Of a DNA stretch of 64,000 nucleotides, positions 14,301-35,498 are shown in pieces; position 1 is the first letter of the stretch; each line of letters starts with the position of its first letter. Both the position numbers and the translations under genes were made by a program. Under the pieces are notes generated by a model. It worked only from the letters and a program-made list of their open reading frames with translations, made no database searches and was not told the DNA's origin. Source of the DNA: Paraburkholderia aromaticivorans (GTDB taxonomy: Bacteria > Pseudomonadota > Gammaproteobacteria > Burkholderiales > Burkholderiaceae); NCBI RefSeq assembly GCF_012689525.1, contig NZ_CP051514.1:2418001-2482000 (forward strand), given 5' to 3'.

Positions 14301-15443
14301 TTAGAACGACGTCAGCAGTCCGAGTTCGGTTACGCTCTGAACCTTGCCGCTGGAAACGATGTTGCCGATTTCAGCAGCATAGGCGCCATTCGTATGCTGG
14401 TACACACTGGTCAGATAGACCCTCGTGCGCCTCGACAGTGTGTGCGTGCCCTGAACGGCGACTTGATTGACGCGAACGTTCTTCAGCAGGTTGTTGCCAA
14501 ATTCGTACGTATACGCCACACCGACATTCACCGCCGACGTCAGATCGTAGCCAGCGCCGGTCGCCAGTGCCGAGATACGCGCACCCGACTCCGTATTGCG
14601 TGCTTGAGCGTATAAGCCCGTTACGGACAGGCCGCCGAACCTGGTACGGGCGCCTGCCGTCAGGTTGGCCAGTCCGCCGTGGCCGGCGTTGATCAATGGC
14701 CAGTTCTGTACCGTGTAAACGACGGTAGCGCGGGTGTCGCCATGACAATACATCAGGGACGCACTCTTGCCCGAGCTATTGTTAAAGTCACCGGCCACAC
14801 CACCCATACTGTACATGACGCCGCCAGAGAATCCGCCGAAGTCATCGCTCATGAACTTGATGGCACTGCTCATGCGCTTGCCGCCGACGCGATCCCAATC
14901 GATGGCGCCCATGCCGTTGGGGATGCCCTGTGCATTGGTAATTGGCGCGAACGGACCGCCGCTGGCATAACCGGGGTGGCCGACGAGATCGGAGCCGAAC
15001 GAACCCGTGCGGAAGTTCAGCATACCGCCTGCGATGCCCGTTGCCGGATCGATGCCAGTGATCAAGAAGTCATCGAAATTGAAATCGTTCTGACGGCCGA
15101 AGCGGACGTCACCGATACCGGCCTTGCCCAAAGCGACCCACGCGGAGTTTTCGAACAACGCGCCGCCCGACTGCGGATCCAGCTCACCCGTGCTGATGCT
15201 GATCATCGAGTCGAGACTGAACGTCGCACGCAGGCCGTTGCCGAGGTCTTCACGACCACGGAAGAAGAACTTCGACGGAAAGATTGCTGAGTCCTACATC
15301 TGGACCAAGCGCTTGCCATTCGAGTTCCCATACACCGCGATGCCTTCATCGAGAAGGCCGCCGATCGTAACACTGCTTTGTGCCTGAGCACCGCTCACGG
15401 CGAGAGCACAAAGACTGAGAGCCATACCAAAACTTTTTCTCAT
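14301..15443 (-). pseudogene. Burkholderia-type outer-membrane porin with in-frame nonsense codon
   Basis: From ATG 15443 the frame gives a signal peptide (MRKSFGMALSLCALAVSGAQ) and the porin start QSSVTIGGLLDEG. It then meets TAG at 15294-15296 (codon 50) and continues in the same frame through FFFRGREDLGNGLRATFSLD to the C-terminal porin strands ending LGLLTSF. Full length would be 380 codons, normal for the 16-stranded general porin family. A single base explains the lesion, so this is either a recent pseudogene or a sequencing error. It is the last gene of the leftward catabolic run and would admit the substrate. Confidence 0.8.
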
Positions 15444-15542
15444 AACCAGATTCATCTCCGCCTTATTGTTTTTTATTAGTATAACTGTTTTTCTATTGCG
15501 TGCAGTATGATGCGTGCCGTACCGCCTTCCGAAATTGTTAAA

Positions 15543-16088
15543 TTAGTTTGCCCCCCAGTTGGAGATCCACAGCAAATCATGGAAATCGATGGCCTTATTC
15601 GTCTGAAATTCGCCGTAGGATCCTTGGGAATACAGCAGCGGCGCCGTTGTGTGGCCATTGATGGCCGTGCCTTCGACATGCCCAAAAATCACGGCGTGCG
15701 TACCTATCTCGATGATGCGTTCGACGCTGCAATCTAAATTGACCATAGCACTGGCCAAAGCCGGGGCACCCGTCTTAATACGATTCCACGTCCCTGCCTG
15801 AAACTTTTCCTGCGGCGAAATCGGTCTCGAGAAACGCTGTGCCAATTCCTGCTCGCTGCGCGCCAGAACGTTGACGACGAAGTTGCCAGTGGCCTGCACG
15901 TGCGCCAGAGACGAGTTCGCACGATTGATACAGACCAGCAGGATAGGGGGCACCGCGCTAACAGACGTCACAGCGGTCGCGGTCATGCCGGCAAGCGGGC
16001 CGTCCGTGTCAGAACCAGTGGTGATCAAACACACGTGCCCGGTCAAACAGCGCATGGCGCGTTTGAATTCAGATTCTTCTACGCTCAC
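15543..16088 (-). CDS. Flavin reductase (HpaC/DIM6-NTAB family)
   Basis: 181 residues. The family fold is indicated by the start (FKRAMRCLTGHVCLITTGSD) and by GMTATAVTSVSAVPPILLVC and FVVNVLARSEQELAQRFS. Such enzymes reduce FMN/FAD with NAD(P)H and hand it to a partner monooxygenase. The obvious partner is the acyl-CoA-dehydrogenase-like monooxygenase at 22712 on the divergent arm. Transcribed leftward with the aldolase genes, 98 bp after the first of them; start ATG 16088. Confidence 0.85.
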   Translation of the reverse strand: MSVEESEFKRAMRCLTGHVCLITTGSDTDGPLAGMTATAVTSVSAVPPILLVCINRANSSLAHVQATGNFVVNVLARSEQELAQRFSRPISPQEKFQAGTWNRIKTGAPALASAMVNLDCSVERIIEIGTHAVIFGHVEGTAINGHTTAPLLYSQGSYGEFQTNKAIDFHDLLWISNWGAN

Positions 16089-16186
16089 TTCACCTTCCTA
16101 ATCATAAAAACTAGACGGACAAGATGATAGGGTGGTTATCTTTACTGACACCACCTCATGCGATAGACCCGCAAGTCTCAGCCGGT

Positions 16187-16858
16187 TTACTGGTCCCAAC
16201 CGAAGATACTGAGCGTGCTCACGCCCGCCTCTAGTCGCTTCATCTGATGTGCTTCTGCAGCTTCGCGTGCTTCCGATGCTGTGATCGCCTCGGCGATTCG
16301 CTCCCGCGGAATGCACACGACACCGTCTTCATCACCCACGATCAGGTCACCTGCATTTACCGTCACGTCGTCGAACCGAGTCGGGGCGTTGATCCAACCT
16401 CTGGCACCGAAATCTTTTCCCGTGCCACGGATACAAAGTCCGCGAGCGAAAACCGGAAAACCGATCTCGGACAACAGTCGCTGATCGCGAACACAGCCGT
16501 TAATGACGAGACCGGCAAGCCCGCGAACTTTTGCGGCCGTTGACATGATCTCGCCCCAGTACCCATGCTCATACGCTTCGCTTACAGAGACGACCAGAAC
16601 ATCTCCCGGTTCGGCTGAGTAAATCGCACGGTGAAGCCAGAGGTTATCGCCACCGGGCGAATGGACGGTCACGGCGGGTCCGCAAATCTTGAATCCTGGC
16701 GCGACGGGCTTAATTTCATAAGGAAGGACTCCGATCTTTCCGGCAGCCTCGTGAAGCGTTGCTGCCGGCAGTTTTGCGGCGGCGTTAATCAGAGTGATGT
16801 CCGGTCGCCGGATATCGAGGCGCGTGGTCTCGTGACGATTGAAAAGCGGTCCCGTCAT
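16187..16858 (-). CDS. RraA/LigK-like aldolase (4-carboxy-4-hydroxy-2-oxoadipate aldolase type), copy 1
   Basis: 223 residues. LigK/GalC-type class II aldolases cleave 4-carboxy-4-hydroxy-2-oxoadipate (or 4-hydroxy-4-methyl-2-oxoglutarate) to pyruvate plus oxaloacetate or pyruvate. The active-site motif is present as LAGLVINGCVRDQR, keeping the metal/substrate Arg-Asp pair but with Asn where many members have Asp before Gly. The C-terminal GDEDGVVCIPRERI block is typical. Its ATG overlaps the stop of copy 2 (ATGA), implying translational coupling. Of the three copies, this one looks most like a ring-cleavage-pathway aldolase. Confidence 0.8.
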   Translation of the reverse strand: MTGPLFNRHETTRLDIRRPDITLINAAAKLPAATLHEAAGKIGVLPYEIKPVAPGFKICGPAVTVHSPGGDNLWLHRAIYSAEPGDVLVVSVSEAYEHGYWGEIMSTAAKVRGLAGLVINGCVRDQRLLSEIGFPVFARGLCIRGTGKDFGARGWINAPTRFDDVTVNAGDLIVGDEDGVVCIPRERIAEAITASEAREAAEAHQMKRLEAGVSTLSIFGWDQ

Positions 16859-17532
16859 GCTTTTTCTCCGATCCGGCGTGTTTGCAGTTGGTGGTACTTG
16901 AACTGCTTGCGAGCCTCGTCCAGGCGCATACCTGTTGCAACAGCCTCACGGATTGCCTTCTCGGCGGCATCGATTTCTTCAGCAGCAGCAAGCACGCGCT
17001 CTTCGTGTTCCTTCGGAATCGAGATCACGCCGTCAGCGTCACCGCGTAGCAGATCGCCAGGAGCAACACGCACGTTACCGATATTCACCGGAACGTTGGT
17101 GGCTTCGACCTGAACGCGATCCTTGCCCGTTCGCATCCAGTTGTCCTTGGAGAAAACCGGGTAGCCGAGCGACAGGCAGAGGTGTACGTCGCGGTTGACG
17201 CCGTCGATCACGGTACCGGCGATACCACGGCGATGAGCGATCTCGGTCAGGATGTCGCCCCATACCGTTGCGTCTTCGCGACCGCCGTTGTCGAGGACGA
17301 TGACCGAGCCGGGCGGAACGTCGTCGATGAAGTCACCCACGGTGCCTGCGGGCGATGCGGCCGGGCCGTAGAGAATTGTGAAGGCCCGACCGGCCATACG
17401 GAACGACGAATCATGCGGCTTGATCTTGTAGCACTGACCGTTCAGGCCGATGCGGTCCAGTGCGTCGCTCAGGGTAGCCGTTTCGAGTTTCGCTGCGCGC
17501 GCAACGTTCGTGTCTTGTTCGATTTCCGACAT
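16855..17532 (-). CDS. RraA/LigK-like family protein, copy 2
   Basis: 225 residues, same fold as its neighbours. Motifs: ETATLSDALDRIGL near the start, GIAGTVIDGVNRDVHLCLSL (Asp-Gly...Arg-Asp active site) and LRGDADGVISIPKEHEE. Sequence identity to copies 1 and 3 is clearly low, so this is not a recent duplication; the copies probably act on different 2-oxo acids or form hetero-oligomers. A decarboxylase or aldolase role is inferred from the family. It lies 2 bp after copy 3. Confidence 0.75.
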   Translation of the reverse strand: MSEIEQDTNVARAAKLETATLSDALDRIGLNGQCYKIKPHDSSFRMAGRAFTILYGPAASPAGTVGDFIDDVPPGSVIVLDNGGREDATVWGDILTEIAHRRGIAGTVIDGVNRDVHLCLSLGYPVFSKDNWMRTGKDRVQVEATNVPVNIGNVRVAPGDLLRGDADGVISIPKEHEERVLAAAEEIDAAEKAIREAVATGMRLDEARKQFKYHQLQTRRIGEKA

Positions 17533-17534
17533 GG

Positions 17535-18197
17535 TTAATCCTTAAGCATAAGTTCGTAGTTTCCGCCCATGACTTCATGGATCGGCGTGCCCGCCAATAC
17601 GGCCTTCGCCATCAAGGCTTCGCGTGCCACGATCGATTCGGCAGTCTCGATCACCTTGGCGATGTTTACGTGGCTGATGAAGATCACGGCGCTGCTATCC
17701 GCGATCACGTAGTCGCCGGCTTCTACCGAGACCCTGAACACTTCAACCGGAACGTTCACACCTTTTTCGACGATACGACCACGAGCGGTGAGGGCGGTGA
17801 ACTCATTCGCGAACACCGGCAGTCCCATCTCGCGGGATTCATCGATGTCGCGAACCGGACCGTCCGCGATCACGCCAGCGATCCCGCGAACCTTGGCGCC
17901 CAACGACAGGATGCCGCCCCACGAACCGGCTTCAATACCGGTACGCTGCTCGACAACGATCACATCGTCGGAGCCGCCGAGTTCGATGGCCGTGGTGCCC
18001 AGATGACGCGGCGCCCCCGGAGGCGGATCGCCAACACCGAGTTTCATCGTGATAACGCGACCGGCAATGCGCTTCGTGCCTGAGGCTTGGGCGACGCCGC
18101 TCACGACGCCGGACAAGCCGAGTTTGTCCAGTGCGTCCGATACAGCGCAGCAGTCCAACCGACGAAGGCGGTGGACATATTCGTCTTTGGTTGCCAT
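17535..18197 (-). CDS. RraA/LigK-like family protein, copy 3
   Basis: 220 residues, first of the three in the transcript. Motifs: CCAVSDALDKLGLSGVVSG, GIAGVIADGPVRDIDESREM with the Asp-Gly-x-x-Arg-Asp pattern, and YVIADSSAVIFISHVNI, where the usual DxDGV tail motif is altered to DSSAV. That change may affect metal or oligomer contacts. It follows the LigB-type dioxygenase gene by 15 bp. Family membership is firm; the exact reaction is not. Confidence 0.75.
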   Translation of the reverse strand: MATKDEYVHRLRRLDCCAVSDALDKLGLSGVVSGVAQASGTKRIAGRVITMKLGVGDPPPGAPRHLGTTAIELGGSDDVIVVEQRTGIEAGSWGGILSLGAKVRGIAGVIADGPVRDIDESREMGLPVFANEFTALTARGRIVEKGVNVPVEVFRVSVEAGDYVIADSSAVIFISHVNIAKVIETAESIVAREALMAKAVLAGTPIHEVMGGNYELMLKD

Positions 18198-18212
18198 ATA
18201 TTTGATATTTCC

Positions 18213-19214
18213 TTATTCGGGCTGGGGCTTCCAGTACACAAAGCCCATCGCGTTGCCAGTACCGGCCTCGCTGCGATAGCAGGGCACGTAATCGACCACC
18301 GTCATGTTGAAGCCAAGTTCATCCATCATGCCGGCGACGGGAATCCAGTTCTTGATTTCCGAAGTGCCCGCCTGGAAGATCTCTTCGCCCAACGCGAACA
18401 CCGGCGTGAGATCGTGCTTTTTCATCGCGTCGAGTACCAGATTGTCAACGCGCTCATCGATGACAAAGTGCGTAAGACCACCGGAGGCGATGACAGCCAC
18501 TCGTGCGTCCGAATCCCACGATTCGATTGCGCGAGCAATCGATGCACCGAAGGCGTGGCAGCGTGCGAGTGTCGGCTGATTCGGCGGATAGAACGTATTG
18601 ACGAACACCGGCACGGTCGGAACGACCTGGTCTTTCATCAACTGGCGGAACACGAAGCCGTATGCATGCGGTGTTTCCGTTTCCGACAAGCGGCTGAGTG
18701 CGGCCACGTCGAAGTTGTCGACGATCGCGCTCTTGATGATGTGCTTTGCAAGTTCGGGAACGCCTTCATGCGTGGCAGCTTCCGGCTTGTAACCCGGCAT
18801 CGAATGACGCACGCCCGGAGGCATTTGCATCAATTTATCGTGGCTGATCATGTTGTTCACGATCGTCGGGCCGTGCATCACGCCAAATGCGGGAATGCAA
18901 TCCGTGGTGAAGATTTCCATCTGATCGTTGCCGACAATGACAACGAAGTCAGGTTTGACTTCAGCCAGCACGCGCGCCATTTCCTCGATAGCCGCCCGGC
19001 ACTGAGCGTGCCGCTCCTTCCACTTCTCGGGCGTGATCTGGTCCGCGAGGTTTTCGTTACGCCGATATTCGACGAGTTCATCGAAGGCCCATTCGCGGCC
19101 CTCGAAGTCATGCTTGGTCAGTCGATCATCGGGTACGCGAGCGCCCCAGGTCTCAGGTGGCGTGATGAGCATGGGGCCGTGCGACGTTCCCATTCCCAAT
19201 ACGATTTTTGCCAT
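18213..19214 (-). CDS. LigB-type (class III) extradiol ring-cleavage dioxygenase
   Basis: 333 residues from ATG 19214. The LigB superfamily opens catecholic rings next to a hydroxyl using non-heme Fe(II). Key features: the N-terminal iron-ligand segment IVLGMGTSHGPML, the VVIVGNDQMEIF strand, and the catalytic-His segment VAVIASGGLTHFVID near residue 245. No separate LigA-like small subunit is fused, and no obvious one is adjacent. The neighbours (LigJ-like hydratase and LigK-like aldolases) support meta-cleavage of a carboxylated dihydroxybenzene such as protocatechuate, gallate or a methoxy derivative. The substrate is inferred only. Confidence 0.85.
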   Translation of the reverse strand: MAKIVLGMGTSHGPMLITPPETWGARVPDDRLTKHDFEGREWAFDELVEYRRNENLADQITPEKWKERHAQCRAAIEEMARVLAEVKPDFVVIVGNDQMEIFTTDCIPAFGVMHGPTIVNNMISHDKLMQMPPGVRHSMPGYKPEAATHEGVPELAKHIIKSAIVDNFDVAALSRLSETETPHAYGFVFRQLMKDQVVPTVPVFVNTFYPPNQPTLARCHAFGASIARAIESWDSDARVAVIASGGLTHFVIDERVDNLVLDAMKKHDLTPVFALGEEIFQAGTSEIKNWIPVAGMMDELGFNMTVVDYVPCYRSEAGTGNAMGFVYWKPQPE

Positions 19215-19240
19215 GATATAAAGTCCTGTGGCCGCCGGGA

Positions 19241-20254
19241 TTATTCGTAATCCGCAAGGTTGAGCTTGAAGAAGTCGCGAGCGTTGCCGAAGAAAATCGC
19301 ATTCTTCTCTGCCTGCGAGAGCCAGTCGAAGCCTTCGATGTACGGCTTGATGTCGTCGAAGGTGCGGCCGGTGTCCGGGTTGATAGCCGAACCCACGCCC
19401 GGGCACTCGGCGCCGAACATGCAGCGGTCAGCGCCAACCGTCTTGATCAGCAGACGCAGCGATTCTTCCGAGTAGAGGACGGTGTCGTAGTACAGGTTAC
19501 GCATGCCGTCGAGGAAGTTGCGGCCGGCGCGCGAAGCGCCTGACTGGAAACGGCCGATCTGGTAGGGAATCGAACCGCCGCCGTGCGACACCATGATCTT
19601 CAGATTCGGGAAGTCCTTGAAGACGTTCGAGTTGACGAGGTTGAACACCGCGATGGTTTCTTCGTTGATGAAGTGAACGGTGTACGGCGAACGTGCCGAG
19701 TGCGAGCCGGTAGCGTGGATGTGGGCCGGCACGTCGAGTTCACACAGCTTTTCGTACAGCGGGTACCAGTAACGGTCACCGAGGCCCGGGGCCTCGACAC
19801 CGCTGTTTTCGAACGGGTCCGGATTCAGCATCACGCCCTTGAAGCCGAGTTCCTTGATGCAGCGTTCGAGTTCCGGCAGCACGACTTCGATCGGGTCGCC
19901 CGACACTTGCGGCAGGCCGCCGATACCGATGAACCGCTTCGGCAGCAACTTGACCGTGCGCGAGATAATGTTGTTGGTTTCTTCCGTGAACCAGTGCACG
20001 AGTTTGCCCGGCTTCTGGCTGTGCATCATCTGGAACGGACGCGGCGACATCAGCTGGACGTTCGTGCCGACGCGGTCGAGCATGTCGAGGTGGCCGACGG
20101 GTGCCATTTCCTTCTTGTTGGCGTAGTGCAGAATTTCTTCGTCGGTCACTTCCGGCATCTTGCGACCGTGTTCGCCGCGATGCGACAGAATGTGTGCCTT
20201 GTATACCCACAATTCTGCGGGTGCGCTGACGTGACCGTGGCAATCGATAATCAC
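19241..20254 (-). CDS. Amidohydrolase-2 family, LigJ-like 4-oxalomesaconate hydratase
   Basis: 337 residues. The zinc-binding HxH is in MIIDCHGHVSAP; a further His and Asp follow in VSHGGGSIPYQIGRF and MFGAECPGVGSAINP. The opening MIIDCHGH, the NPDPFENSG segment, and the tail GRTFDDIKPYIEGFDWL with NARDFFKL closely resemble LigJ, which hydrates 4-oxalomesaconate to 4-carboxy-4-hydroxy-2-oxoadipate, the aldolase substrate. The gene lies between the extradiol dioxygenase (26 bp) and the ferredoxin reductase (48 bp). A decarboxylase of the ACMSD type is the main alternative. Confidence 0.8.
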   Translation of the reverse strand: MIIDCHGHVSAPAELWVYKAHILSHRGEHGRKMPEVTDEEILHYANKKEMAPVGHLDMLDRVGTNVQLMSPRPFQMMHSQKPGKLVHWFTEETNNIISRTVKLLPKRFIGIGGLPQVSGDPIEVVLPELERCIKELGFKGVMLNPDPFENSGVEAPGLGDRYWYPLYEKLCELDVPAHIHATGSHSARSPYTVHFINEETIAVFNLVNSNVFKDFPNLKIMVSHGGGSIPYQIGRFQSGASRAGRNFLDGMRNLYYDTVLYSEESLRLLIKTVGADRCMFGAECPGVGSAINPDTGRTFDDIKPYIEGFDWLSQAEKNAIFFGNARDFFKLNLADYE

Positions 20255-20302
20255 TTACTTGTCTCCTAAACTAACGTGTGCCGATAGGCACGCCTATGTT
20301 TC

Positions 20303-21259
20303 TTAAAGATCGAGGACGAGACGATCGCCCTTGCAGCCGGAACAGCAGATAATCATCGTCTTGTTCGAAGCCTTCTCGGGCTCCGAGAGAATGGCGTCGC
20401 GGTGGTCCGGCTCGCCTTGCAGCACGCGGACTTCACATGCGCCGCATACGCCTTCTTCACACGAATACGAAATCGGTACACCGGCATCACGCACGACGTT
20501 GAGAATCGTTTTGCCCTGCGGGACGGTCAGCGTCTTGCCGCTCTTGCGCAGTTCAACGACGAAGTTGCCATCGAGTGCGGCTTCGTGCTTGGCACTGAAG
20601 TACTCGACGTGGACTTGTTCCGGGGGCAACCTGTTGCAGGCCTTTTCGAATGCTTCAAGCATCGGGCCGGGGCCGCAGCAGTAGAAGTGGGCCGACCCCG
20701 GCTCCTGCTTCACGACGTCCGCGATATTGAGGAATGCGCCGACTTCGGCATCGACGTGAACGACCGAACCTTCGAACGTCTTCAATTCTTCGGCGTAGGC
20801 GACGTCGACCCGGTCTCGGCACGAATAATAGATACGCGGCGACTTTCCGATTTCCTTCAGGCGACGCGCCATACACAGAATAGGCGTGATCCCGATACCA
20901 CCGGCAACCAGAACCGTGTGCTCAGCGTCTTCGTCGAGAGGGAAGTTGTTGCGCGGGGTTTCGACCTGCACGAGGTCGCCGACACGCATCGTTTCGTGGA
21001 TGTAGCGGGAGCCACCACGCGACCGCGGGTCGAGTTTGACGCCGATGACGTACGAACGCTGCGTCAGGCTATTGCTGGACTGAAGGAGGGAGTACTGACG
21101 CGTCAATCCGTTCGGCAGGAACAGTGCGACGTGCGAACCCGCGTCGGCCGCGGGCAGACGCTCGCCTTCGGGGTCTTCAAATGTCAGAGCCAGCGTGTTG
21201 CGCGCCAAATATTGACTCGCTGTTAAGCGCAGAGTCATCACATCATGAACTTCGGTCAT
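20303..21259 (-). CDS. Phthalate dioxygenase reductase-type oxidoreductase (FMN/NADH plus plant-type 2Fe-2S)
   Basis: 318 residues. The start is ATG 21259, preceded by GGAGGTGAC; an upstream in-frame extension lacks homology. Order: flavin domain with RQYSLLQSS, NAD(P)H domain with VAGGIGITPILCMARRL, and a C-terminal [2Fe-2S] domain with CEEGVCGACE and a final Cys near ICCSGC. This is the VanB/PDR class that passes electrons directly to a Rieske oxygenase. It is the first gene of the leftward run and the only such reductase in the window, so it probably serves both Rieske oxygenases on the rightward arm. Confidence 0.9.
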   Translation of the reverse strand: MTEVHDVMTLRLTASQYLARNTLALTFEDPEGERLPAADAGSHVALFLPNGLTRQYSLLQSSNSLTQRSYVIGVKLDPRSRGGSRYIHETMRVGDLVQVETPRNNFPLDEDAEHTVLVAGGIGITPILCMARRLKEIGKSPRIYYSCRDRVDVAYAEELKTFEGSVVHVDAEVGAFLNIADVVKQEPGSAHFYCCGPGPMLEAFEKACNRLPPEQVHVEYFSAKHEAALDGNFVVELRKSGKTLTVPQGKTILNVVRDAGVPISYSCEEGVCGACEVRVLQGEPDHRDAILSEPEKASNKTMIICCSGCKGDRLVLDL

Positions 21260-21386
21260 GTCACCTCCAAAATCGTAGAACGCACGGAACCCCGTCAATG
21301 GTGCGCAAGCATTACACATCACGTTTTCTCAGGTACCGGCTTGTTGCATCGCAATCACCAATCATCGAAAGTCTCTCTCAACCCAT

Positions 21387-21415
21387 TTGACGAAGAATTC
21401 TTTTTTGCATATTAT
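21387..21415 (+). promoter_or_regulatory. Sigma-70-like promoter for the rightward catabolic run
   Basis: TTGACG at 21387 and TATTAT at 21410 with a 17-bp spacer, 80 bp before the beta-propeller gene, whose ATG at 21497 follows a strong ribosome site (AAGGAGGAGAA). The 237-bp region 21260-21496 separates the two divergent runs and must hold both promoters and any operator; no second clear promoter or palindrome was found on the leftward side. Confidence 0.5.
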
Positions 21416-21496
21416 TTGGGCTAGACAGAAAAAAGTCAAAGGCTCTTCAGAGCAAAACAGGCGACATCAGATAGGGTATTCCCTTAAGGAGGAGAA

Positions 21497-22639: not shown

Positions 22640-22711
22640 CCGATTTATAAACAGAACTATTCTGCGCGCCGGGCCCTGTTCCACGGCAGCAAGTCCCACC
22701 AGGAGAATGTC

Positions 22712-23896: not shown

Positions 23897-23905
23897 GGAT
23901 TAGCT

Positions 23906-24211: not shown

Positions 24212-24276
24212 GGCTAGCGGGAGAGCAAATATCTCCCACGTGTATTCACAGATAAAGAAAATCTAGGAGCAAACCC

Positions 24277-25530: not shown

Positions 25531-25537
25531 GTTCCAC

Positions 25538-26332: not shown

Positions 26333-26359
26333 GATCGAAAACGAGCAGGAGACAAACAC

Positions 26360-27463: not shown

Positions 27464-27507
27464 CGCCGCACATCGTTGGCTAAACTGAATTTGATAAAGG
27501 TAACTTC

Positions 27508-28353
27508 ATGATCGACAGCCACGCACACCTGATTTCGACCGACCGTGAGAAGTATCCGCCGTCGCCGCTGAGCGGTGTTCTCGAAGAAAACGCATTCGAC
27601 AACCCCGTGACGGCCGAGCGCCTGATCGACCTGCTCGACGCATTGGGTATCGATAAGGCGCTCGCGGTCCAACGTGCGCACCTCTACGGCTTCCACAACG
27701 ACTACGTCGTGGATTCGGCACAGAAATACCCGAATCGTCTGCGTTCGCTGTGTATGCTCGACGCACTGGCACCGAACGTCGAAGAAACGGTGAAATACTG
27801 GGTCGGCGAGCGCAAGTCTGTCGGCATCCGTCTGACGGAACCGAAGAAAGGTGCAGACAGCAGCTGGTTCGCATCGACGGAAGCGCGTCGTGCCTGGGCA
27901 GCAGTGACGGATCTCGGCGGCTCGGTGCGTCTGCACTTCTACCGCTGGAATCGTCTGGCAGCACTCGAAGCACTCCAGGACGTCGTGAAGAAGTTCCCGG
28001 ATACGCCGGTCATTCTCGATCACTTCTCGAATATCGTCGGCGAAGACCCGGGACCGGACTACGGTGTGGACGAAGCATTGCTGAAGTTCGTGGACAGCCC
28101 GAACGTCTTCCTGCTGTACTCCATGATCAACCTCGGCAAGTTGAAGGCGCTCGACCTGCCGTCCGCGCCGGTTGTTGAGCGCGTGGTGCGTTCGTTCGGT
28201 GCCGATCGTGTGATGTGGGGTTCCGACATCGCTCAGTCGAAGGGCGAGTACAAGGACATGGTTCAGATGGCTAAGGACTCCGTGTCCACACTGTCGGCTG
28301 AAGATCAGCAGAAGGTCCTGCATACGACAGCTGAACGCGTCTACTTTAGCTAA
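27508..28353 (+). CDS. Amidohydrolase-2 family hydrolase, second copy
   Basis: 281 residues. HxH in MIDSHAHLISTDREKY, a His in PVILDHFSNIVG and the catalytic Asp in VMWGSDIAQSKGEY. It is clearly related to, but not a recent duplicate of, the gene at 25538. It ends the first transcription block of the rightward arm, since a strong hairpin follows at 28367. Lactonase, hydratase or decarboxylase activity is possible within the superfamily. Confidence 0.75.
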   Translation: MIDSHAHLISTDREKYPPSPLSGVLEENAFDNPVTAERLIDLLDALGIDKALAVQRAHLYGFHNDYVVDSAQKYPNRLRSLCMLDALAPNVEETVKYWVGERKSVGIRLTEPKKGADSSWFASTEARRAWAAVTDLGGSVRLHFYRWNRLAALEALQDVVKKFPDTPVILDHFSNIVGEDPGPDYGVDEALLKFVDSPNVFLLYSMINLGKLKALDLPSAPVVERVVRSFGADRVMWGSDIAQSKGEYKDMVQMAKDSVSTLSAEDQQKVLHTTAERVYFS

Positions 28354-28366
28354 CGAATTTGTAGAC

Positions 28367-28402
28367 ATAAACGGCGTTCTAGTTACTGAGAACGCCGTTT
28401 AT
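28367..28402 (+). terminator. Strong Rho-independent terminator-like hairpin
   Basis: Perfect 14-bp stem ATAAACGGCGTTCT-agttactg-AGAACGCCGTTTAT. Only a weak T tract follows (ATGTGCATTT). It splits the rightward arm into a proximal block (21497-28353) and a distal block starting at the second Rieske gene, so the latter probably has its own promoter in 28403-28597. Confidence 0.7.
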
Positions 28403-28597
28403 GTGCATTTCAGGGTTATCCCGAGTCATGTCGCGGGGGGTAACGCGATAAGATTCGAAGAATACTTAATTGAATACTATATGAGATGCTGATCCGGTTA
28501 GGTCAAGGAGGTCGGATGCGCAAACTGGCAGGTCCGTTGTGTGTCGCACCTTGTTCTCGATTTATCCGTTCTCGATTCCTTTCTCAGGAGACTGAAA

Positions 28598-29662
28598 ATG
28601 AAGTTCCTCCGGAATTGCTGGTATATGGTTGGATGGTCGAGCGAGTTGTCGGCTACTGATATCGTCCCGTTCACGCTGATGAACGAGGCACTGGCGCTCT
28701 ATCGCAAAGAAGACGGCACGCTGGTAGCACTCGAAGATCTGTGTCCGCACCGCCTGGTTCCGCTGTCGGTCGGCCGTAAGGAAGGTGATGAACTGCGCTG
28801 CATGTACCACGGCCTGAAATTCGCCGCAGATGGACGCTGCACTGAAATCCCGGGCACCGATCGTATCTCGTCGAAGGTCTGCGTTCGTAGCTACCCGATC
28901 GAAGAAAAGCATGGTGCTGCATGGGTCTGGATGGGTGACGCTGCAAAGGCCGATCCCGCACTGATTCCGCCGATCGAAGGTCCGGACAGCGCTATCTTCG
29001 CGATGAAATGCTCGAAGAAAGTATGGAAGGGCAATGCGGAAATTGTCGCTGATAACTTGCTCGACCTGTCACACGCACCTTATGTTCACGAAGCGACGTT
29101 CGGTGCCAACAACAAGGTGTCGATCAAGATTCAGAAGGAAGGCGAAGCAAAACGCGGTATCGATACGATCGAGCGTGGCGTCGTTGCTGACCGCTGGCAC
29201 CTGGGCCGTCCGTCAAATCCTTACTTCGGTGAAATCCCCTCCGACGATAACGTGGTCAGCACGTTCCTCGTACCGGGCGTCTTCATCCTAAAGATCCATT
29301 CGTACGCACCGGGCGTTCAGGATCGTCTCGTCGATGGCAAGCCTGCAGAAGAGCCGATCTTTCGCCGTTGCACATGCCAGATGATCACGCCGATCAACGA
29401 TACGGAATCGATGTTCTTCTACAACTTCGGTCCGGATCACGAGCATGCCGATTTGGCAGATCACGCTTTCGCGATCGCCGAAGCAGCATTCGCCGAAGAC
29501 AGGGCAATCATCGAGACGCAGCAGGCAACGATCTCGAAAACGCCGGCTCGCAAGATGATTATGTTGGTGATGGATCAGCCGGTGCTGCGTTACAACGAAA
29601 TCTACAACCGTCTTCGCTCGGCGGAGGAGACTGAGCAAGCCGCGGCTGCGCCCTCAGCGTAA
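28598..29662 (+). CDS. Rieske non-heme iron oxygenase, VanA-like (aromatic O-demethylase type)
   Basis: 354 residues. ATG 28598 follows CAGGAGACTGAAA and gives the typical VanA start MKFLRNCWYMVGWSSEL; a longer upstream frame has no homology. Rieske motif CPHRLVPLS...LRCMYHGLKF at about residues 46-72; mononuclear iron site DNLLDLSHAPYVHEATFG. VanA enzymes demethylate vanillate-type methoxy aromatics with a VanB-type reductase. This supports a methoxylated or ether-bearing aromatic acid as substrate. No separate reductase is adjacent, so the PDR-type protein at 20303 is the likely electron donor. Confidence 0.88.
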   Translation: MKFLRNCWYMVGWSSELSATDIVPFTLMNEALALYRKEDGTLVALEDLCPHRLVPLSVGRKEGDELRCMYHGLKFAADGRCTEIPGTDRISSKVCVRSYPIEEKHGAAWVWMGDAAKADPALIPPIEGPDSAIFAMKCSKKVWKGNAEIVADNLLDLSHAPYVHEATFGANNKVSIKIQKEGEAKRGIDTIERGVVADRWHLGRPSNPYFGEIPSDDNVVSTFLVPGVFILKIHSYAPGVQDRLVDGKPAEEPIFRRCTCQMITPINDTESMFFYNFGPDHEHADLADHAFAIAEAAFAEDRAIIETQQATISKTPARKMIMLVMDQPVLRYNEIYNRLRSAEETEQAAAAPSA

Positions 29663-29682
29663 GTAGATCGCACGGCGCTGGT

Positions 29683-31275
29683 ATGTTTTCTGAGACACAG
29701 GGAATGACGAAAATGGAATTGAACTGGACCGAGCCCCAATGGGATGAGCAAGCCGATATGGTTGTTGTCGGCTATGGCGGCGCAGGCGCGGTGTTTGCAT
29801 TCGAAGCCGCTGAACAGGGCGCCGACGTGCTCATTCTCGAAAAGGGTGTGCAGGGCGGCGGCAACTCGGTCTGTGTCGCGGGTGGTCTGATCATGACCTC
29901 CGTGGATGAAGACGAGTCGTTCAAATATCTGGATTGGCTGTGCGGAGGCCAAACAGATGAAAGCGTTCTTCGCCATTTCGTTTCGAGTCTCAAGAACATA
30001 CCGTCGTGGCAGCACAAACTCGAATTGCCGCTCAAGGATAACCCGCAGCCGTTCTCGGCACCGGGGTTTTTTCCCGAGTTCCCGGGCGCTCCGGGCGGGG
30101 AAAGCATCAAGGGTATGAGCGTCGTAGCCGCACCGGGCGGTGCAGGCCTCTGGAATGCGATCTCCGCACAAGCGGAGAAGGCGGGTGCCCGCGTTCAGTG
30201 CAATACACGGGTCACCAGGTTGGTTCAGCACCCGGTGACGAAACGGATCCTTGGCGTTCAAGCCGAACATGATGGCAAGACGATCGCAGTTCGTGCTCGC
30301 AAGGCAGTAGTGTTGGCCAGCGGCGGCTTTGAAGCCAACGATGCCATGTGCAAACAGTTCCTGACTGCATGCCCGATCTACTTCCTTGGTAGCCCGAATC
30401 TGACCGGCGACGGCATCCGCATGGCGCAGGAAGTTGGTGCGCAACTATGGCACATGAACGCCGTAGCGGGCCCGCTAAACATGGGCATCAAGACGAAGGA
30501 AGGCTACGTCTACGTGACGTACGATCTGAACAAGGTCGCGGGCTTCGGCTACAAAAACGGTGCCTTTAAGGACGGCGGCAGTCTGTTGTGGGTGAACCGA
30601 CAGGCGAAGCGCTTCCATAACGAAACCGTGGATACATCGGTTGTTCAACACGGATTGGCAAACCGCGATACATGGTTGGCAACGACGCCGGGCACCCCGG
30701 AATTCACGAACGTGCCGGCATTTCACATCTTCGATGAGAAGGTCCGTTCCGGTGGCGCGGCAATGACGACGCTGAATTCGCGCGTGCCGCCGTGGTCGCA
30801 AGACAACGTCAAGGAACTCGAAGAAGGTCTGATCATCAAGGCCGATACGCTCGAAGAACTGGCGTTGAAGTGCCAGTGGCCGGAAATCAAGGGTGTGTGC
30901 AAGGCAGGCCACCTCGATCCGGCCGCACTTCGCGAGACGGTCGAGCGTTACAACGATCAATGCCGCAACAACGTCGATCGAGATTGCGGTCGCGAAACGT
31001 TCCTCGTGCCGCTCAACGATGAAGGCCCGTTTTACGCGATTGGGCCGATGCTACCGACATATCTGAACACGCACGGCGGTCCGAAGCACGATGCCGGTCA
31101 GCGTGTTCTCGATCACCAGAACAAGCCGATTGCCGGTCTTTATGCAATCGGGGAGTGTGGATCGCTATGGGGTCCGTATTACAACTCGATGGGCGATATC
31201 GCCGAATTCATCGTGTCTGGCGTGACTGCGGCAAGAACCGCACTTGCCGACAGTGAGGCGCGGGAAAGTCGCTAA
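29683..31275 (+). CDS. FAD-dependent oxidoreductase, fumarate reductase/3-ketosteroid dehydrogenase type
   Basis: 530 residues, with alternative starts at 29704 and 29713. The ADP-binding fold is MVVVGYGGAGAVFAFEAAEQ with EKG at the strand end. A second FAD contact is KAVVLASGGFEAN, and the C-terminal FAD site is YAIGECGSLWGPYYNSMGDI. Such enzymes reduce or desaturate bonds alpha-beta to a carbonyl. In a ring-cleavage pathway the closest precedent is maleylacetate-like or enone reduction, but no direct match can be claimed. No export signal, so cytoplasmic. Confidence 0.8.
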   Translation: MFSETQGMTKMELNWTEPQWDEQADMVVVGYGGAGAVFAFEAAEQGADVLILEKGVQGGGNSVCVAGGLIMTSVDEDESFKYLDWLCGGQTDESVLRHFVSSLKNIPSWQHKLELPLKDNPQPFSAPGFFPEFPGAPGGESIKGMSVVAAPGGAGLWNAISAQAEKAGARVQCNTRVTRLVQHPVTKRILGVQAEHDGKTIAVRARKAVVLASGGFEANDAMCKQFLTACPIYFLGSPNLTGDGIRMAQEVGAQLWHMNAVAGPLNMGIKTKEGYVYVTYDLNKVAGFGYKNGAFKDGGSLLWVNRQAKRFHNETVDTSVVQHGLANRDTWLATTPGTPEFTNVPAFHIFDEKVRSGGAAMTTLNSRVPPWSQDNVKELEEGLIIKADTLEELALKCQWPEIKGVCKAGHLDPAALRETVERYNDQCRNNVDRDCGRETFLVPLNDEGPFYAIGPMLPTYLNTHGGPKHDAGQRVLDHQNKPIAGLYAIGECGSLWGPYYNSMGDIAEFIVSGVTAARTALADSEARESR

Positions 31276-31309
31276 TAGTTGTACGGATAATTAACAAGGA
31301 GACACCGTA

Positions 31310-32647
31310 GTGAGTGAGACCGCAGAAGTACAAACGAAGTCGGCGCCCGCCGACAACGTGGAAGATTCAAAGACGTCCAAAGGTGCATGGTGGATGCTCA
31401 TCGTCTTGACGGCCACGTATGTCATCTCGTTTATCGATCGGGGCGCGCTGGCTCTCGTCGTCGGGCCGATCAAGGAAGACCTCGGAATTTCCGATCTTCA
31501 GGTCAGTTTGTTGCTTGGCCTTTCTTTCATGTTGCTGTATAGCGTGCTCAGTATTCCAATGGGCATACTGGTCGATAAGTACCAGCGTAAGACGCTCCTC
31601 GGCGGCGCGATCATGGCATGGTCGGTGGTGCAGATGCTGTGTGGTCTGAGCACGACCTATATCCATTTGTTCTTGACGCGCGTTGGTCTCGGTGTCGGTG
31701 AATCGGCGCTGGCTCCCGGTTCTCAGTCGATGATTCGTGACGCATTTCCGCCGCATCGTCGCAGTATTGCCTTCGGTATCTACAATATCGGCCCGATGTT
31801 GGGTACGGGTTTGTCGATGGCTCTCGGTGCCGTCCTGTTGAAGGCAGCATCGGCAGGCGCATTCGATAGTCTACCCCTCGTCGGCGGCATGAAGCCGTGG
31901 CACTATGTGCTGCTGGTGCCCGGCATCATTGGGATTCCGTTCGCGATTCTCCTTTTGCTGCTGCGTGAGCCGGCCCGTCGCTTTCAGACCGATACTTCCG
32001 AGGTGACGTACAAGCAGACCATGTGCTTCGTATGGAAGAATCGTGGCGTGTACATTCCGCTCTGGACTGCGATTTGTCTATACGGTATTGCCATCGGCTC
32101 GCAGATGGCATGGCTTCCGGAAATCATCGCTCGTACGCTACATGTTGCGCGTCCGGAAATCGGTAAGGCAATCGGTGGCGTTGCACTGCTCGCTTCCCCG
32201 CTCGGTCTTCTGATCTGCGGCAGTATCGCGGACCGGCTGCGCAAGCGCGGTATGGTCGATGCGCCTGTTCGGGTGGCGGCGGTAACAACGGCAATCGCGG
32301 CAGTCGCTACGGCATGCTTCCCGCTTGTCCATACGATGAGCGCGGGTATCGTCCTCTACTTCATCCAAATGTTCATGTTTGCGATGTTCGCGGTGGCAGG
32401 CGGTGCAACGAATGCCAACTTCACGCCCGGTAACATGATGGGCAAGATCACCGCCATCTATTACTTGATCACGAATCTCGTCGGTTTGGCACTCGGCCCT
32501 ACAGTGGTGGCGCTCGTCGCTAAATTCTTCGACGGTCCGAATGCACTCGGCGCCTCGTTCGTCATCTGCTACGTGGTCTCCGTGACATTGGCGGTGATTC
32601 TGCTGATCCGCGTCTGCGGTGCATTGCGTGGGCCGGTTGTGCAATAA
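31310..32647 (+). CDS. MFS transporter, spinster/organic-anion type
   Basis: 445 residues from a GTG with AAGGAGACACC upstream. About 12 membrane segments. The first helix VISFIDRGALALVVGPIKED is typical of spinster-like and aromatic-acid:H+ symporter MFS proteins, and motif A is present as GILVDKYQRKTLLGG. Placed among catabolic genes, it is the likely inner-membrane uptake carrier for the substrate. Direction of transport is inferred. Confidence 0.85.
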   Translation: MSETAEVQTKSAPADNVEDSKTSKGAWWMLIVLTATYVISFIDRGALALVVGPIKEDLGISDLQVSLLLGLSFMLLYSVLSIPMGILVDKYQRKTLLGGAIMAWSVVQMLCGLSTTYIHLFLTRVGLGVGESALAPGSQSMIRDAFPPHRRSIAFGIYNIGPMLGTGLSMALGAVLLKAASAGAFDSLPLVGGMKPWHYVLLVPGIIGIPFAILLLLLREPARRFQTDTSEVTYKQTMCFVWKNRGVYIPLWTAICLYGIAIGSQMAWLPEIIARTLHVARPEIGKAIGGVALLASPLGLLICGSIADRLRKRGMVDAPVRVAAVTTAIAAVATACFPLVHTMSAGIVLYFIQMFMFAMFAVAGGATNANFTPGNMMGKITAIYYLITNLVGLALGPTVVALVAKFFDGPNALGASFVICYVVSVTLAVILLIRVCGALRGPVVQ

Positions 32648-32713
32648 CTGGTAGTCGTCTCGGGGCATCATGTCTGACGTCCCTTTCTACGAATTCATAT
32701 AGGTTTAAATCAG

Positions 32714-33889
32714 GTGAAGATTACCCGCGTTGAGTGCATTCCGATTTCGATGCCGCTGAAGAAGCCGATTAAGCTTCCGAATGTCACAATCACTTGCCTG
32801 AATACGCTTTTCTTGGCTATTACAGCCGACGACGGTCTCGTCGGCTATGCGGAATCGGGTGACACATCATCGTGGTATCGCGGTGAAAGCCAGGCATCCA
32901 TGACGGCGATGATTTCCGATATTTTCGCGCCGCGAATCCTGCTTGGTGAAGATCCGAGCAATATCGAGAAGATCGTCGGCATGATGGATCAACTCGCACG
33001 CGACAACAATCAGGCGAAGGCGTTGGTTGACTGTGCGCTCCATGACCTGAAGGGCAAAGCTTTGGGCGTGCCAGTCTACAGCCTGTTGGGTGGCCGCACT
33101 CGCGAGAAGATACCGCTCGGTTGGGTATTGTCGGCGGGTGAGCCCGAAAAGGTCGCAGAACTGGCGATCCAGGTCCGCGATAATGGCTTCTCGGCGGTCA
33201 AGCTCAAAGTCGGCCGTCATACGTTCAACACCGACGTGGCTACGGTCCGCGAAGTGCGAGCGGCGCTCGGGCCGGAAGCCAAGATCATCTTGGACGCGAA
33301 TGGCTCATGGAACTATGAACAGGCGTTGACGACGATGAAACGCCTCGATCAATACAACCTTTCGTTCATGGAACAGCCTCTGGCGCATCAATACCGCGAC
33401 AGCCTGGCGAAACTGCGTGAGCGTGTCAACACGCCAATATACGCAGACGAGGGGGCGCAAGAGTTGGGCGATCTGCGTGAAATCGCAGAGCGTCGTTCGG
33501 CCGATGGCGTCGTTCTCAAGATTCAAAAGGTAGGCGGACTGGTCAAGGCACAGCGATTCCTAGCTGCATGTCGCATGTACGACATTCCTGTGTTTTGCAG
33601 CACTCTGATCGGATCGGGCGTCGAATCCGGGCCGAGCACGCATCTCATGGTCGCAAACGATTGGGCATGCCAGTTCATGAGCGAAAGTATGGGGCCGCTC
33701 GCGATTCACGCGGCTTGGAACAGTGGCGATATCCGGGTAGATCAGGACTTGGCTTTCGGTGGCCAGCGCTTTAGCGGCGGCTTTGCATATCCGAGTGAAG
33801 GCGTCGGATTCGGCTTCGAATTGAATCAAGAACTACTGGCCAAGATTCATTCGCCGGGACAGCAGCATCGGGTCGCCGAAGCGCAATAG
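32714..33889 (+). CDS. Enolase superfamily enzyme, muconate cycloisomerase/mandelate racemase-like
   Basis: 391 residues from a GTG. N-terminal capping domain MKITRVECIPISMP, then the barrel with the general-base KxK in FSAVKLKVGRHTF, metal ligands in IILDANGSWNYEQ, FMEQPL and YADEGAQELGD, and the opposite-face Lys in DGVVLKIQKVGG. The KxK/Lys arrangement places it in the muconate lactonising enzyme subgroup (cycloisomerase, epimerase or o-succinylbenzoate-synthase-like). A lactone-forming or isomerising step in the pathway is possible; the substrate is unknown. Confidence 0.8.
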   Translation: MKITRVECIPISMPLKKPIKLPNVTITCLNTLFLAITADDGLVGYAESGDTSSWYRGESQASMTAMISDIFAPRILLGEDPSNIEKIVGMMDQLARDNNQAKALVDCALHDLKGKALGVPVYSLLGGRTREKIPLGWVLSAGEPEKVAELAIQVRDNGFSAVKLKVGRHTFNTDVATVREVRAALGPEAKIILDANGSWNYEQALTTMKRLDQYNLSFMEQPLAHQYRDSLAKLRERVNTPIYADEGAQELGDLREIAERRSADGVVLKIQKVGGLVKAQRFLAACRMYDIPVFCSTLIGSGVESGPSTHLMVANDWACQFMSESMGPLAIHAAWNSGDIRVDQDLAFGGQRFSGGFAYPSEGVGFGFELNQELLAKIHSPGQQHRVAEAQ

Positions 33890-33958
33890 CAGAGCACACA
33901 GCGGCGGACACGATTCGGCCGCGTCGCATAAACGTAATCCGACAGAGGAGATAATTCG

Positions 33959-34471
33959 ATGCAAGGACTTGCTTCGCCACCGTGGAAATACGCGGTACTT
34001 TGGCTCCGGGTCTATTTCGGCGCCGATCTTTTGTGGTCTGGTTTCCGCTATCTCTCCACAGGCTGGGTTCCGTTTATTCCCGGCATCGCAGGTCAATACG
34101 TGCAGGCACTTGATGCCATTCACATGTTCTATGCCGTGAAGGCAATGGAAATGCTGGCTGGTATCCTGCTGCTGACGAACCGATACGTGTTGCTCGGCGC
34201 GATTCTCGAATTCCCGACATCGATCTCGATTTTCTGGATCAATACCTTCATCGTTGGAACCCCACGTCAATTGTTCTCTGGCCCGAATCAGCTGCTGATG
34301 AATGGCCTCATTCTGCTGGCGTATGGCGGATATATGGCGAGCGTGTTCAAGCCAAACAAGCCGCTCGCGGTATGGGAAGGCTTCAAGGTCGATGTCTGGA
34401 AAGAGCACCTGAGGCTGAGTAAAGGTGCTAAACCGGCCGCGACAGTTGAAGTATCGGGCGACGTCGCGTAA
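33959..34471 (+). CDS. DoxX-like integral membrane protein, module copy 1
   Basis: 170 residues, about four membrane segments. It begins with a sequence shared by the later copies (PPWKYAVLWLRVYFGADLLW) and has the DoxX-family Glu/Gly helix VKAMEMLAGILLLTNRYVL. It also carries TFIVGTPRQLFSGPNQLLMN. A gene for a 65-residue membrane protein follows by 12 bp. DoxX-like proteins are known with quinone-linked and redox-stress systems, but this subgroup has no recognised function. Its place at the end of a catabolic run suggests a membrane step tied to the pathway. Confidence 0.7.
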   Translation: MQGLASPPWKYAVLWLRVYFGADLLWSGFRYLSTGWVPFIPGIAGQYVQALDAIHMFYAVKAMEMLAGILLLTNRYVLLGAILEFPTSISIFWINTFIVGTPRQLFSGPNQLLMNGLILLAYGGYMASVFKPNKPLAVWEGFKVDVWKEHLRLSKGAKPAATVEVSGDVA

Positions 34472-34483
34472 AGGAGTGCGCAA

Positions 34484-34681
34484 ATGAAAAAAAGTAATCG
34501 GAATCTTTATATCGGCCTCGCCTGCTGTGTGATCATGACGTGCTGGGTATTCTTCGGGTCCACAGGACTGGGCTATACCGAATATCGAGCATTGCGCGCA
34601 CGCGATATGTTCGGCCTGGCAATTCCATGGATATGCGTCGTCATCGTCTTGATTCGCGATCGTCGCAGAGGCATTGTATAA
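34484..34681 (+). CDS. Small two-helix membrane protein, DoxX module partner 1
   Basis: 65 residues beginning MKKSNRNLYIGLACCVIMTC. It has two hydrophobic segments separated by a conserved loop (GLGYTEYRALRARDMFGLAI) and a basic tail (IRDRRRG). The same layout recurs at 35310 and, more distantly, at 45836, each time directly after a DoxX-like gene, which argues strongly that this is a real protein acting with it. An RBS (AAGGAGTGCGC) precedes the ATG. Confidence 0.65.
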   Translation: MKKSNRNLYIGLACCVIMTCWVFFGSTGLGYTEYRALRARDMFGLAIPWICVVIVLIRDRRRGIV

Positions 34682-34779
34682 CCGGCTCTCCGGTGGTAGC
34701 GGCTGTGCCACTACCTTTGGGATATGCTCTCGGCATATTTCGTCGCTGTACTGCAGTAACTTCTTGGAATTATTTCACT

Positions 34780-35298
34780 ATGCAAAGCGCTAATTCTTCC
34801 CCTTGGAAGTACGTCATTACGTGGCTTCGTCTTTATTTCGGCGCACACCTTTTCTTTTCCGGCATTCGATTCGTGATCGACGGTTATGTACCGATGGTTC
34901 CAGGTCTCGCTGGTGAATATCTGGCCGGTGCCGACGCAATCGGTATGTATCACTGGGTCAAATATATGGAAGCGATTTATGGTCTCCTGCTTCTGACAAA
35001 CCGTTTTGTCTTCCTGACGCTGATTCTCGAAATGCCGACCACCGTCACGATTTTTTGGCTGAATACGTTCATTTCGGCAACACCGCGTCAATTGTTTTCG
35101 GGCCCGCAAGAACTACTGATGAACGGTTTGCTGCTGCTCGCGTATAGCGGCTACATGGCGGCATGCTTCCGTCCGAGCCTGAATCCGATGTGGTTGTGGG
35201 ACGGTTGGAAGGGGTTCCACCTGAAGGGCAAAGGTGGTCTGGTGAACACCAACCCGAGCTTGGTCGGCGTTTCTATCGAAGAAAAAGAATCGGCTTAA
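34780..35298 (+). CDS. DoxX-like integral membrane protein, module copy 2
   Basis: 172 residues from ATG 34780. Shares with copy 1 the start SSPWKYVITWLRLYFGAHLF, the helix VKYMEAIYGLLLLTNRFVFL and the segment TPRQLFSGPQELLMNGLLLL. A hydrophilic tail of about 30 residues is longer than in copy 1. The gene follows the first mini-protein by about 100 bp containing a GGTAGCGGC...GCCACTACC hairpin. Confidence 0.7.
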   Translation: MQSANSSPWKYVITWLRLYFGAHLFFSGIRFVIDGYVPMVPGLAGEYLAGADAIGMYHWVKYMEAIYGLLLLTNRFVFLTLILEMPTTVTIFWLNTFISATPRQLFSGPQELLMNGLLLLAYSGYMAACFRPSLNPMWLWDGWKGFHLKGKGGLVNTNPSLVGVSIEEKESA

Positions 35299-35309
35299 GG
35301 AGCATTCGC

Positions 35310-35498
35310 ATGAAAAAGAATACCTGGATCGCAACCGCCATCTGTATCGCTCTGACGCTGCTGGCCATCGACGGCTCGACGGGTTGGGGTTGGGCGGACT
35401 ACCGTCCGCTGCGCAACTTCGACTACTTTGGTCTCGGCATTTCCTGGCTGCTTTTCATCTTCGTGCTCATCCGCGACAAGATCAAGGGCGAAGCCTGA
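35310..35498 (+). CDS. Small two-helix membrane protein, DoxX module partner 2
   Basis: 62 residues: MKKNTWIATAICIALTLLAI, a loop GWGWADYRPLRNFDYFGLGI and a second helix ending in VLIRDKIKGEA. Clear homologue of the 34484 product (same MKK start, YRPLR/YRALR loop and IRDxxxG tail). It begins 11 bp after DoxX copy 2 with an AAGGAGCATTCGC ribosome site. The IS6 element starts 17 bp after its stop, so the operon may once have continued. Confidence 0.7.
   Translation: MKKNTWIATAICIALTLLAIDGSTGWGWADYRPLRNFDYFGLGISWLLFIFVLIRDKIKGEA

Follow-up and report, generated by a model that had tools for sequence, protein, structure and literature searches.

The window analysed here, a stretch of 64,000 nucleotides from the genome of Paraburkholderia aromaticivorans (10.84 Mb in four contigs; C1:2418001-2482000), holds an island of genes for aromatic degradation which is arranged in two tight runs diverging from a 174-bp gap at 21323-21496. 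We consider it rather probable that the products of this island degrade an aromatic acid with a carbon substituent R next to the diol, through meta-cleavage of the LigZ-LigY kind; each reaction, the order of the steps and the nature of R are what we infer. The gene families, the LigY-type identity of the hydrolase, a conserved cassette of five genes (LigY-LigB-RraA1-RraA2-RraA3) and its tracking with RraA1 and RraA2 are observed directly. The original prediction, made from the letters of the window, had described an island for aromatic meta-cleavage in which oxygenase modules are mixed and which is not as such any of the protocatechuate 4,5, gallate and phthalate pathways, and this description holds; its carboxylated aromatic substrate is also probably right.

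Identity of the hydrolase and the ring-cleavage enzyme

The protein encoded at 19241-20254 (minus strand) was compared with the structures in the Protein Data Bank, where it matched two chains of LigY from Sphingobium/Parasphingobium lignivorans SYK-6 (5VN5/6E6I) at 2e-146 with 490 bits, and 4-oxalomesaconate hydratase (LigJ) at 2.6e-63 with 217 bits. This difference and the tree described below replace the label of LigJ-like hydratase given in the original prediction by that of a LigY-type C-C hydrolase, and the logic of the pathway thereby shifts from LigJ-LigK (oxalomesaconate) to the LigZ-LigY route through which the lignin biphenyl 5,5'-dehydrodivanillate (DDVA) is known to be degraded. 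A scan of genome contigs was used to collect relatives, and the best 80 of 560 fell into two bands, 35 loci at 49-77% identity (LigY-type, with ligY of SYK-6 inside the band at 62%) and 45 at 37-40% (LigJ-type). In a maximum-likelihood tree of 61 rows, some long branches of which were flagged by the program, the window LigY stands in a 22-row clade (99/99) along with a second SYK-6 copy and a paralogue from its own genome, and the DDVA LigY of SYK-6 falls outside it in the sister clade. Such a placement marks the window protein, as far as its sequence tells, as a LigY relative and not as an orthologue of the DDVA LigY.

The LigB-family (LigZ-like) extradiol dioxygenase lies next to it at 18213-19214 (minus strand; LigB Pfam 7.5e-21 on the longer open reading frame (ORF) 18213-19406). 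It is 45% identical to SYK-6 LigZ with the same N-terminal region, 51-55% to the copy in the second SYK-6 cluster, with which it groups, and 55-58% to the alphaproteobacterial copies of the island; close relatives carry the names of Paraburkholderia ferrariae, P. rhynchosiae and P. youngii (83-84%). The list of invariant residues from the LigB alignment is unusable due to one outlier row (Polymorph_B_28917). DesZ (3-O-methylgallate dioxygenase), a name which some sources give to close relatives of this LigB, was considered and rejected, as the SYK-6 matches at 1e-10 were only LigZ and the second-cluster gene.

The RraA genes and their association with LigY

Three RraA-family genes follow on the minus strand. 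RraA1 (17535-18197; RraA-like 3e-28) is of the G-X20-R-D-X2-E type and RraA2 (16855-17532; RraA-like 3.5e-37) of the D-X20-R-D type, which we take to be the two motif types of catalytic RraA relatives. The residue 20 positions before the R-D pair is Gly in all RraA1 and Asp in 33/33 RraA2 sequences, and a Glu stands three residues after the Asp of this pair in 35/38 RraA1 sequences; the R-D pair is present in all three proteins, as is the C-terminal Glu of the aldolase. RraA3 (16187-16858; 3NOJ 9e-38) resembles LigK, the aldolase of 4-hydroxy-4-methyl-2-oxoglutarate (HMG) and 4-carboxy-4-hydroxy-2-oxoadipate (CHA), and passes the model NF006731 with 188.1 bits against a cut-off of 179, though not TIGR02798 (174.1 against 304.5). 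Scored against the same HMG/CHA aldolase model NF006731, RraA1 (75.7 bits) and RraA2 (94.7 bits) stay under the cut-off of 179.

The neighbourhoods of the 80 loci were counted in stored flanks of up to 10 kb, with identity thresholds of our own setting. RraA1-type genes were found near 23/35 LigY-type loci versus 0/45 LigJ-type loci, and with full flanks only the count is 17 of 21 LigY-type loci, 22 LigJ-type loci having full flanks. RraA2 gave the same picture (18/35 versus 0/45), and LigK-type genes were distributed the other way (5/35 versus 30/45). Among 249 genomes of the family Burkholderiaceae, LigY (E<=1e-90) occurs in 27 and RraA1 (E<=1e-40) in the same 27 plus 2 more; each of the 30 LigY copies is accompanied by RraA1 and RraA2 at no more than 15 kb on its contig, a count which took all 30 LigY, all 32 RraA1 and 30 of 56 RraA2 rows and set aside 26 RraA2 rows of 46-55% identity. 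Across 378 phylum-wide genomes RraA1 occurs in 2, both having LigY-type copies, and it was looked for and not found in the 31 of these genomes with LigJ-type matches only. In many genomes the searches scored only part of the first-look candidates. The genomes are related and the counts are hence not independent events, for which reason a Fisher test on the co-occurrence of RraA1 and LigY was not used as a probability.

Distribution of the cassette and of the whole island

The uninterrupted order LigY-LigB-RraA1-RraA2-RraA3/LigK was found in 11 fetched loci, namely the window, the genomes G204, G231 and G085, a second cluster of SYK-6, Aminobacter, Polymorphobacter and four Actinomycetota, and the order RraA1-RraA2-RraA3-LigB-LigY in 5 loci, two of which are probably one genome. 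The gene-neighbourhood check suggested along with the original prediction thus revealed a recurrent cassette, and the order of the full island is moreover kept in two other genomes, so chance assortment is not its explanation. The DDVA cluster of SYK-6 has the order ligZ-RraA1-RraA2-ligY; ligZ is SLG_07720 and ligY is SLG_07750 in a table of PMC12997858, so two tags lie between them, with room for the RraA pair. RraA2 of the window is 75% identical to the SYK-6 gene immediately upstream of ligY.

Two paralogous sites of the own genome (loci L009, L010 and L129) were also recovered. The site at C1:1.108-1.124 Mb has a LigXa_C Rieske gene, RraA1-3, LigB and LigY (73%) with genes for acyl-CoA ligase, enoyl-CoA hydratase, thiolase and acyl-CoA dehydrogenase, and that at C1:1.137-1.152 Mb combines LigB-RraA1-3 and a LigY relative (45-48%) with genes for a Rieske enzyme, a PDR reductase, a CoA-transferase and a thiolase. 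These sites support the view that one cassette may have been adapted to several side chains. In Polymorphobacter (from lichen) and Aminobacter the LigY-LigB-RraA1-2-3 cassette is plasmid-borne (L148, L149), with other oxygenases and a succinate-semialdehyde-type dehydrogenase nearby. Reading the substrate from the neighbours of the cassette was tried and given up, since the partners are too different between loci.

The full island is present in two other Burkholderiaceae genomes, G204 and G231, where the order of the window genes is retained and their identities are 51-89%; an extra GntR gene lies there between amidohydrolase b and the second Rieske gene, and the small proteins vary. The core is also present in alphaproteobacteria including SYK-6, and the set of genes is not unique. 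In SYK-6 it occupies 2.084-2.107 Mb (G253:C1; L150, L139, L151) as a second LigY-LigB-RraA1-2-3 cluster apart from the ligZ-ligY cluster, and the identities to the window are 72% for LigY, 65/74/63% for RraA1-3, 71% for the alcohol dehydrogenase, 61% for the monooxygenase, 57% for the beta-propeller, 44% for the flavin reductase, 42% for amidohydrolase a and 33% for amidohydrolase b; with LigB and the Rieske gene all these members are matched (33-74%). Within the 47 kb examined around this cluster there was no window-type match for PDR, FAD_binding_2, MFS or MR/MLE genes, and the match for the VanA-like Rieske gene was weak (29%). Similar gene sets in other orders were seen in Novosphingobium MD-1, Sphingomonas canadensis and the metagenome-assembled genomes of a Sphingomonas and a Hyphomonadaceae member.

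The literature was searched with position-estimated tags of the second SYK-6 cluster (SLG_187-192 and SLG_195-204) and with the spacer genes of ligZ-ligY, and no paper on this cluster was found in that search, SLG_193/194 and most subscription papers lying outside its scope. One match to the estimated tags is consistent with the table entry of a review for desZ. The island may be called undescribed, as in the original prediction, within the same searched literature, where no paper naming it was found and most subscription papers were again outside.

Gene content of the island

All gene classes named in the original prediction were recovered near their predicted places by Pfam and NCBIfam scans of candidate reading frames. 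Its remark on tight packing also agrees with the distances, which range from -4 to 102 bp for the minus run and from 7 to 72 bp for the plus run, two of 380 and 187 bp in the latter excepted. The statement that the genes are mostly intact is right, save for the porin.

The minus run reads, from the central gap, PDR reductase, LigY, LigB, RraA1, RraA2, RraA3, flavin reductase and porin. The PDR/VanB-type flavin-ferredoxin reductase (20303-21322, minus strand; Fer2 2.8e-14, NAD_binding_1 2e-7) presumably serves both Rieske oxygenases, and the flavin reductase (15543-16088, minus strand; Flavin_Reduct 6e-38) is the presumed partner of the group D monooxygenase. The Gram-negative porin (14301-15440, minus strand, the end at 15440 being approximate and the listed ORF being 14301-15206; Porin_4 1e-22) has an in-frame stop near the N-terminus, which a tblastn alignment with the G204 porin crosses, and the remainder is open and 64% identical to that porin. 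At the end of this run lies a GntR/FCD regulator (13549-14253, plus strand; Pfam GntR 9e-17, FCD 7e-13), found at the equivalent place in G204 (75%) and G231 (68%).

The plus run, all on the plus strand, begins with a beta-propeller protein (BNR/Vps10/Ycf48-like by Pfam; 21497-22639) which is a conserved core member with an AlphaFold model of pLDDT 88; a search for its function by fold ended without conclusion, as the best Foldseek match, 3B7F, is itself of no known function. The group D flavin monooxygenase of acyl-CoA-dehydrogenase fold follows (22712-23896; Acyl-CoA_dh_2), HsaA/HPAH-like and nearest to the models of HsaA and p-hydroxyphenylacetate hydroxylase at scores under their cut-offs; the NCBIfam cut-offs of HsaA and HsaB were not reached by the monooxygenase (286/450 bits) and the flavin reductase (97/230 bits). 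The Rieske oxygenase with a LigXa_C domain (24277-25530; LigXa_C 6e-45) is 35% identical to SYK-6 LigXa versus 59-60% to the second-cluster Rieske enzyme of SYK-6, the out-of-frame row of L026 having been ignored in this comparison, and its closest solved relatives (7FHR 5e-85, 7FJL 4e-80) are annotated as phthalate 4,5-dioxygenase and Rieske proteins. Next come amidohydrolase-2 a (25538-26332; Pfam 2e-33; 2FFI 2e-10), distantly like the hydrolase/lactonase of 2-pyrone-4,6-dicarboxylate (PDC), the zinc alcohol dehydrogenase (26360-27463; ADH_N, ADH_zinc_N; 84-85% in G204/G231) and the lactonase-like amidohydrolase-2 b (27508-28353; Pfam 2e-27), for which no solved relative was found at 1e-3.

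The second Rieske oxygenase carries a VanA_C domain (28541-29662; VanA_C 2.5e-27; 7QWT 3e-37; dicamba O-demethylase 4e-35). It is followed by an FAD_binding_2 flavoprotein of the fumarate reductase/KstD superfamily (29683-31275; Pfam 1.5e-42), which reached no NCBIfam cut-off among the 25 models listed, by an MFS transporter (31310-32647; MFS_1 1.4e-45) with a presumed role in uptake, and by an enolase-superfamily (MR/MLE) enzyme (32714-33889; MR_MLE_C 9e-46; closest 2QDE 1.3e-135). The run ends with two small proteins of 170 and 252 amino acids (33959-35298) with similar ORFs in G204/G231; the shorter scores 17.6 bits for DoxX, under the cut-off of 23.6, and the longer has no Pfam match.

The surroundings are rich in mobile elements. 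Four group II intron matches over the gathering score lie in the window (2429-2546, 11578-11747, 40762-40943 and 50148-50284), an intron reverse transcriptase/maturase in two reading frames was seen at 11908-13396, and a DDE_3/HTH_33 transposase directly before an AraC-type regulator (36479-38493) adjoins the island end.

Proposed pathway and the role of the RraA proteins

In the proposed pathway the PDR reductase, paired with either or both of the Rieske enzymes, and the group D monooxygenase with its flavin reductase, would form a 5-R-protocatechuate, which LigB would cleave between the R-bearing carbon and the adjacent hydroxylated carbon. LigY would hydrolyse the ring-fission product to R-COOH and 4-carboxy-2-hydroxypenta-2,4-dienoate (CHPD), and the RraA proteins may then carry CHPD through hydration to HMG and aldol cleavage to pyruvate. 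The alcohol dehydrogenase, the two lactonase-like amidohydrolases, the VanA-like Rieske enzyme, the flavoprotein and the MR/MLE enzyme might act on R-COOH or in early steps. The same logic of a group D monooxygenase with flavin reductase, an extradiol dioxygenase and a C-C hydrolase is found in the steroid system HsaAB-HsaC-HsaD, from which the island differs in having a dioxygenase of the LigB family and a hydrolase of the amidohydrolase family.

Cleavage of DDVA gives 5-carboxyvanillate and CHPD (PMC6874591), and the CHPD hydratase of SYK-6 is listed as not identified in Table 2 of a 2025 paper (PMC12673573), which proposes UxuA for this step in Paenibacillus. The simplest reading of the gene context is that RraA1, with or without RraA2, is a candidate for this hydratase and RraA3 for the HMG aldolase. 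A wider and more tentative proposal, which we regard as possible without expecting it, is that the CHPD hydratase missing from LigY pathways is RraA1, either by itself or in a heteromer with RraA2, that LigY-LigB-RraA1-2-3 is a general plug-in cassette turning any 5-substituted protocatechuate into R-COOH and two pyruvates, with oxygenases that vary by bacterium, and that the island is its group D monooxygenase version, also unnoticed in SYK-6.

Several observations weigh against these proposals. RraA1 is absent near 12/35 LigY-type loci, including four with full flanks (L020, L025, L035, L038), RraA2 is absent near 6 LigY-type loci having RraA1, mostly on short contigs, and two loci (L032, L045) have the order B-R1-Y without RraA2. 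RraA2-like proteins (46-55%) are also encoded in 20 genomes of the family that have no LigY, so the RraA2 family is broader than the cassette, and distant RraA1-like genes (40-41%; L176/G119, L177/G235) stand directly after LigJ-like genes (34%) in genomes of about 2 Mb, which weakens the exclusiveness of RraA1 for LigY. The core has both a Rieske enzyme and a monooxygenase, either of which could make the catechol. RraA proteins are known as aldolases/decarboxylases or RNase E regulators, and we know of no RraA hydratase.

Alternative explanations

It is rather unlikely that all three RraA proteins act as aldolases, redundantly or as hetero-oligomers, with CHPD hydrated spontaneously, by LigY itself (a hydratase relative) or by an enzyme elsewhere like UxuA. 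The R-D pair and C-terminal Glu kept in all three would suit this explanation, and PMC5065237 describes RraA members as class II pyruvate aldolases, the catalytic relatives having one of two motifs. RraA1 and RraA2 however track LigY and not LigJ-LigK, SYK-6 keeps both beside ligY despite a separate LigK-like gene, and the five-gene cassette holds no other hydratase candidate. Still less probable is a protocatechuate-4,5- or gallate-like route ending in a LigJ hydratase and a LigK aldolase, which we hold to be very remote; LigJ and LigY are homologous and RraA3 is LigK-like, so the island and the LigJ-LigK route share hydrolase/hydratase and aldolase families, yet the island has LigY in the place of LigJ, and the oxalomesaconate reading was dropped on account of the wide margin of the LigY match and the lack of RraA1 and RraA2 near any of the 45 LigJ-type loci.

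An ordinary DDVA pathway in a betaproteobacterium, with LigX-type demethylation, LigZ, LigY and decarboxylation of 5-carboxyvanillate, appears improbable. The LigB-type dioxygenase (45%), the LigY-type hydrolase (62%) and the RraA1-RraA2 pair (55/75%) are common to the island and the SYK-6 DDVA cluster (ligXa, ligZ, ligY), and LigXa_C and VanA-like Rieske enzymes are present. The island nevertheless has a Rieske enzyme only 35% identical to LigXa, RraA3 inside the cassette, and an additional monooxygenase, propeller, lactonases, MR/MLE enzyme and flavoprotein; no close LigW-like match was found in the own genome, the best being 31% at 3.4e-17 to a SYK-6 query taken for ligW by its position and Amidohydro_2 membership. 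SYK-6 moreover holds both the DDVA cluster and an island copy with a 60%-identical Rieske enzyme, and it is with this second copy that the window LigY and LigB group. A phthalate-like or other non-lignin aromatic acid, for which the LigXa_C Rieske enzyme would be the ring dioxygenase and the alcohol dehydrogenase or flavoprotein the dehydrogenase, is an unlikely substrate, although the annotation of the closest solved Rieske relatives favours it; a LigY-type hydrolase implies a carbon-substituted ring, and the genes scanned yielded no phthalate-type decarboxylase. This last explanation overlaps with the LigZ-LigY pathway preferred here, R being open.

Significance

An aromatic island without a label has become a testable LigZ-LigY pathway, and LigY chemistry is seen to be widespread in Burkholderiaceae and present in Actinomycetota. 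RraA1 and RraA2, represented in SYK-6 by the pair of genes that separates ligZ from ligY, are concrete candidates for the dienoate hydration which has no assigned gene for SYK-6 in PMC12673573 (Table 2), and the prediction is directly testable in this model strain. It bears on the funnelling of lignin dimers, in which the carbon of the CHPD fragment reaches pyruvate via the hydration step, and if it is true, the hydratase would be a new activity for the RraA fold.

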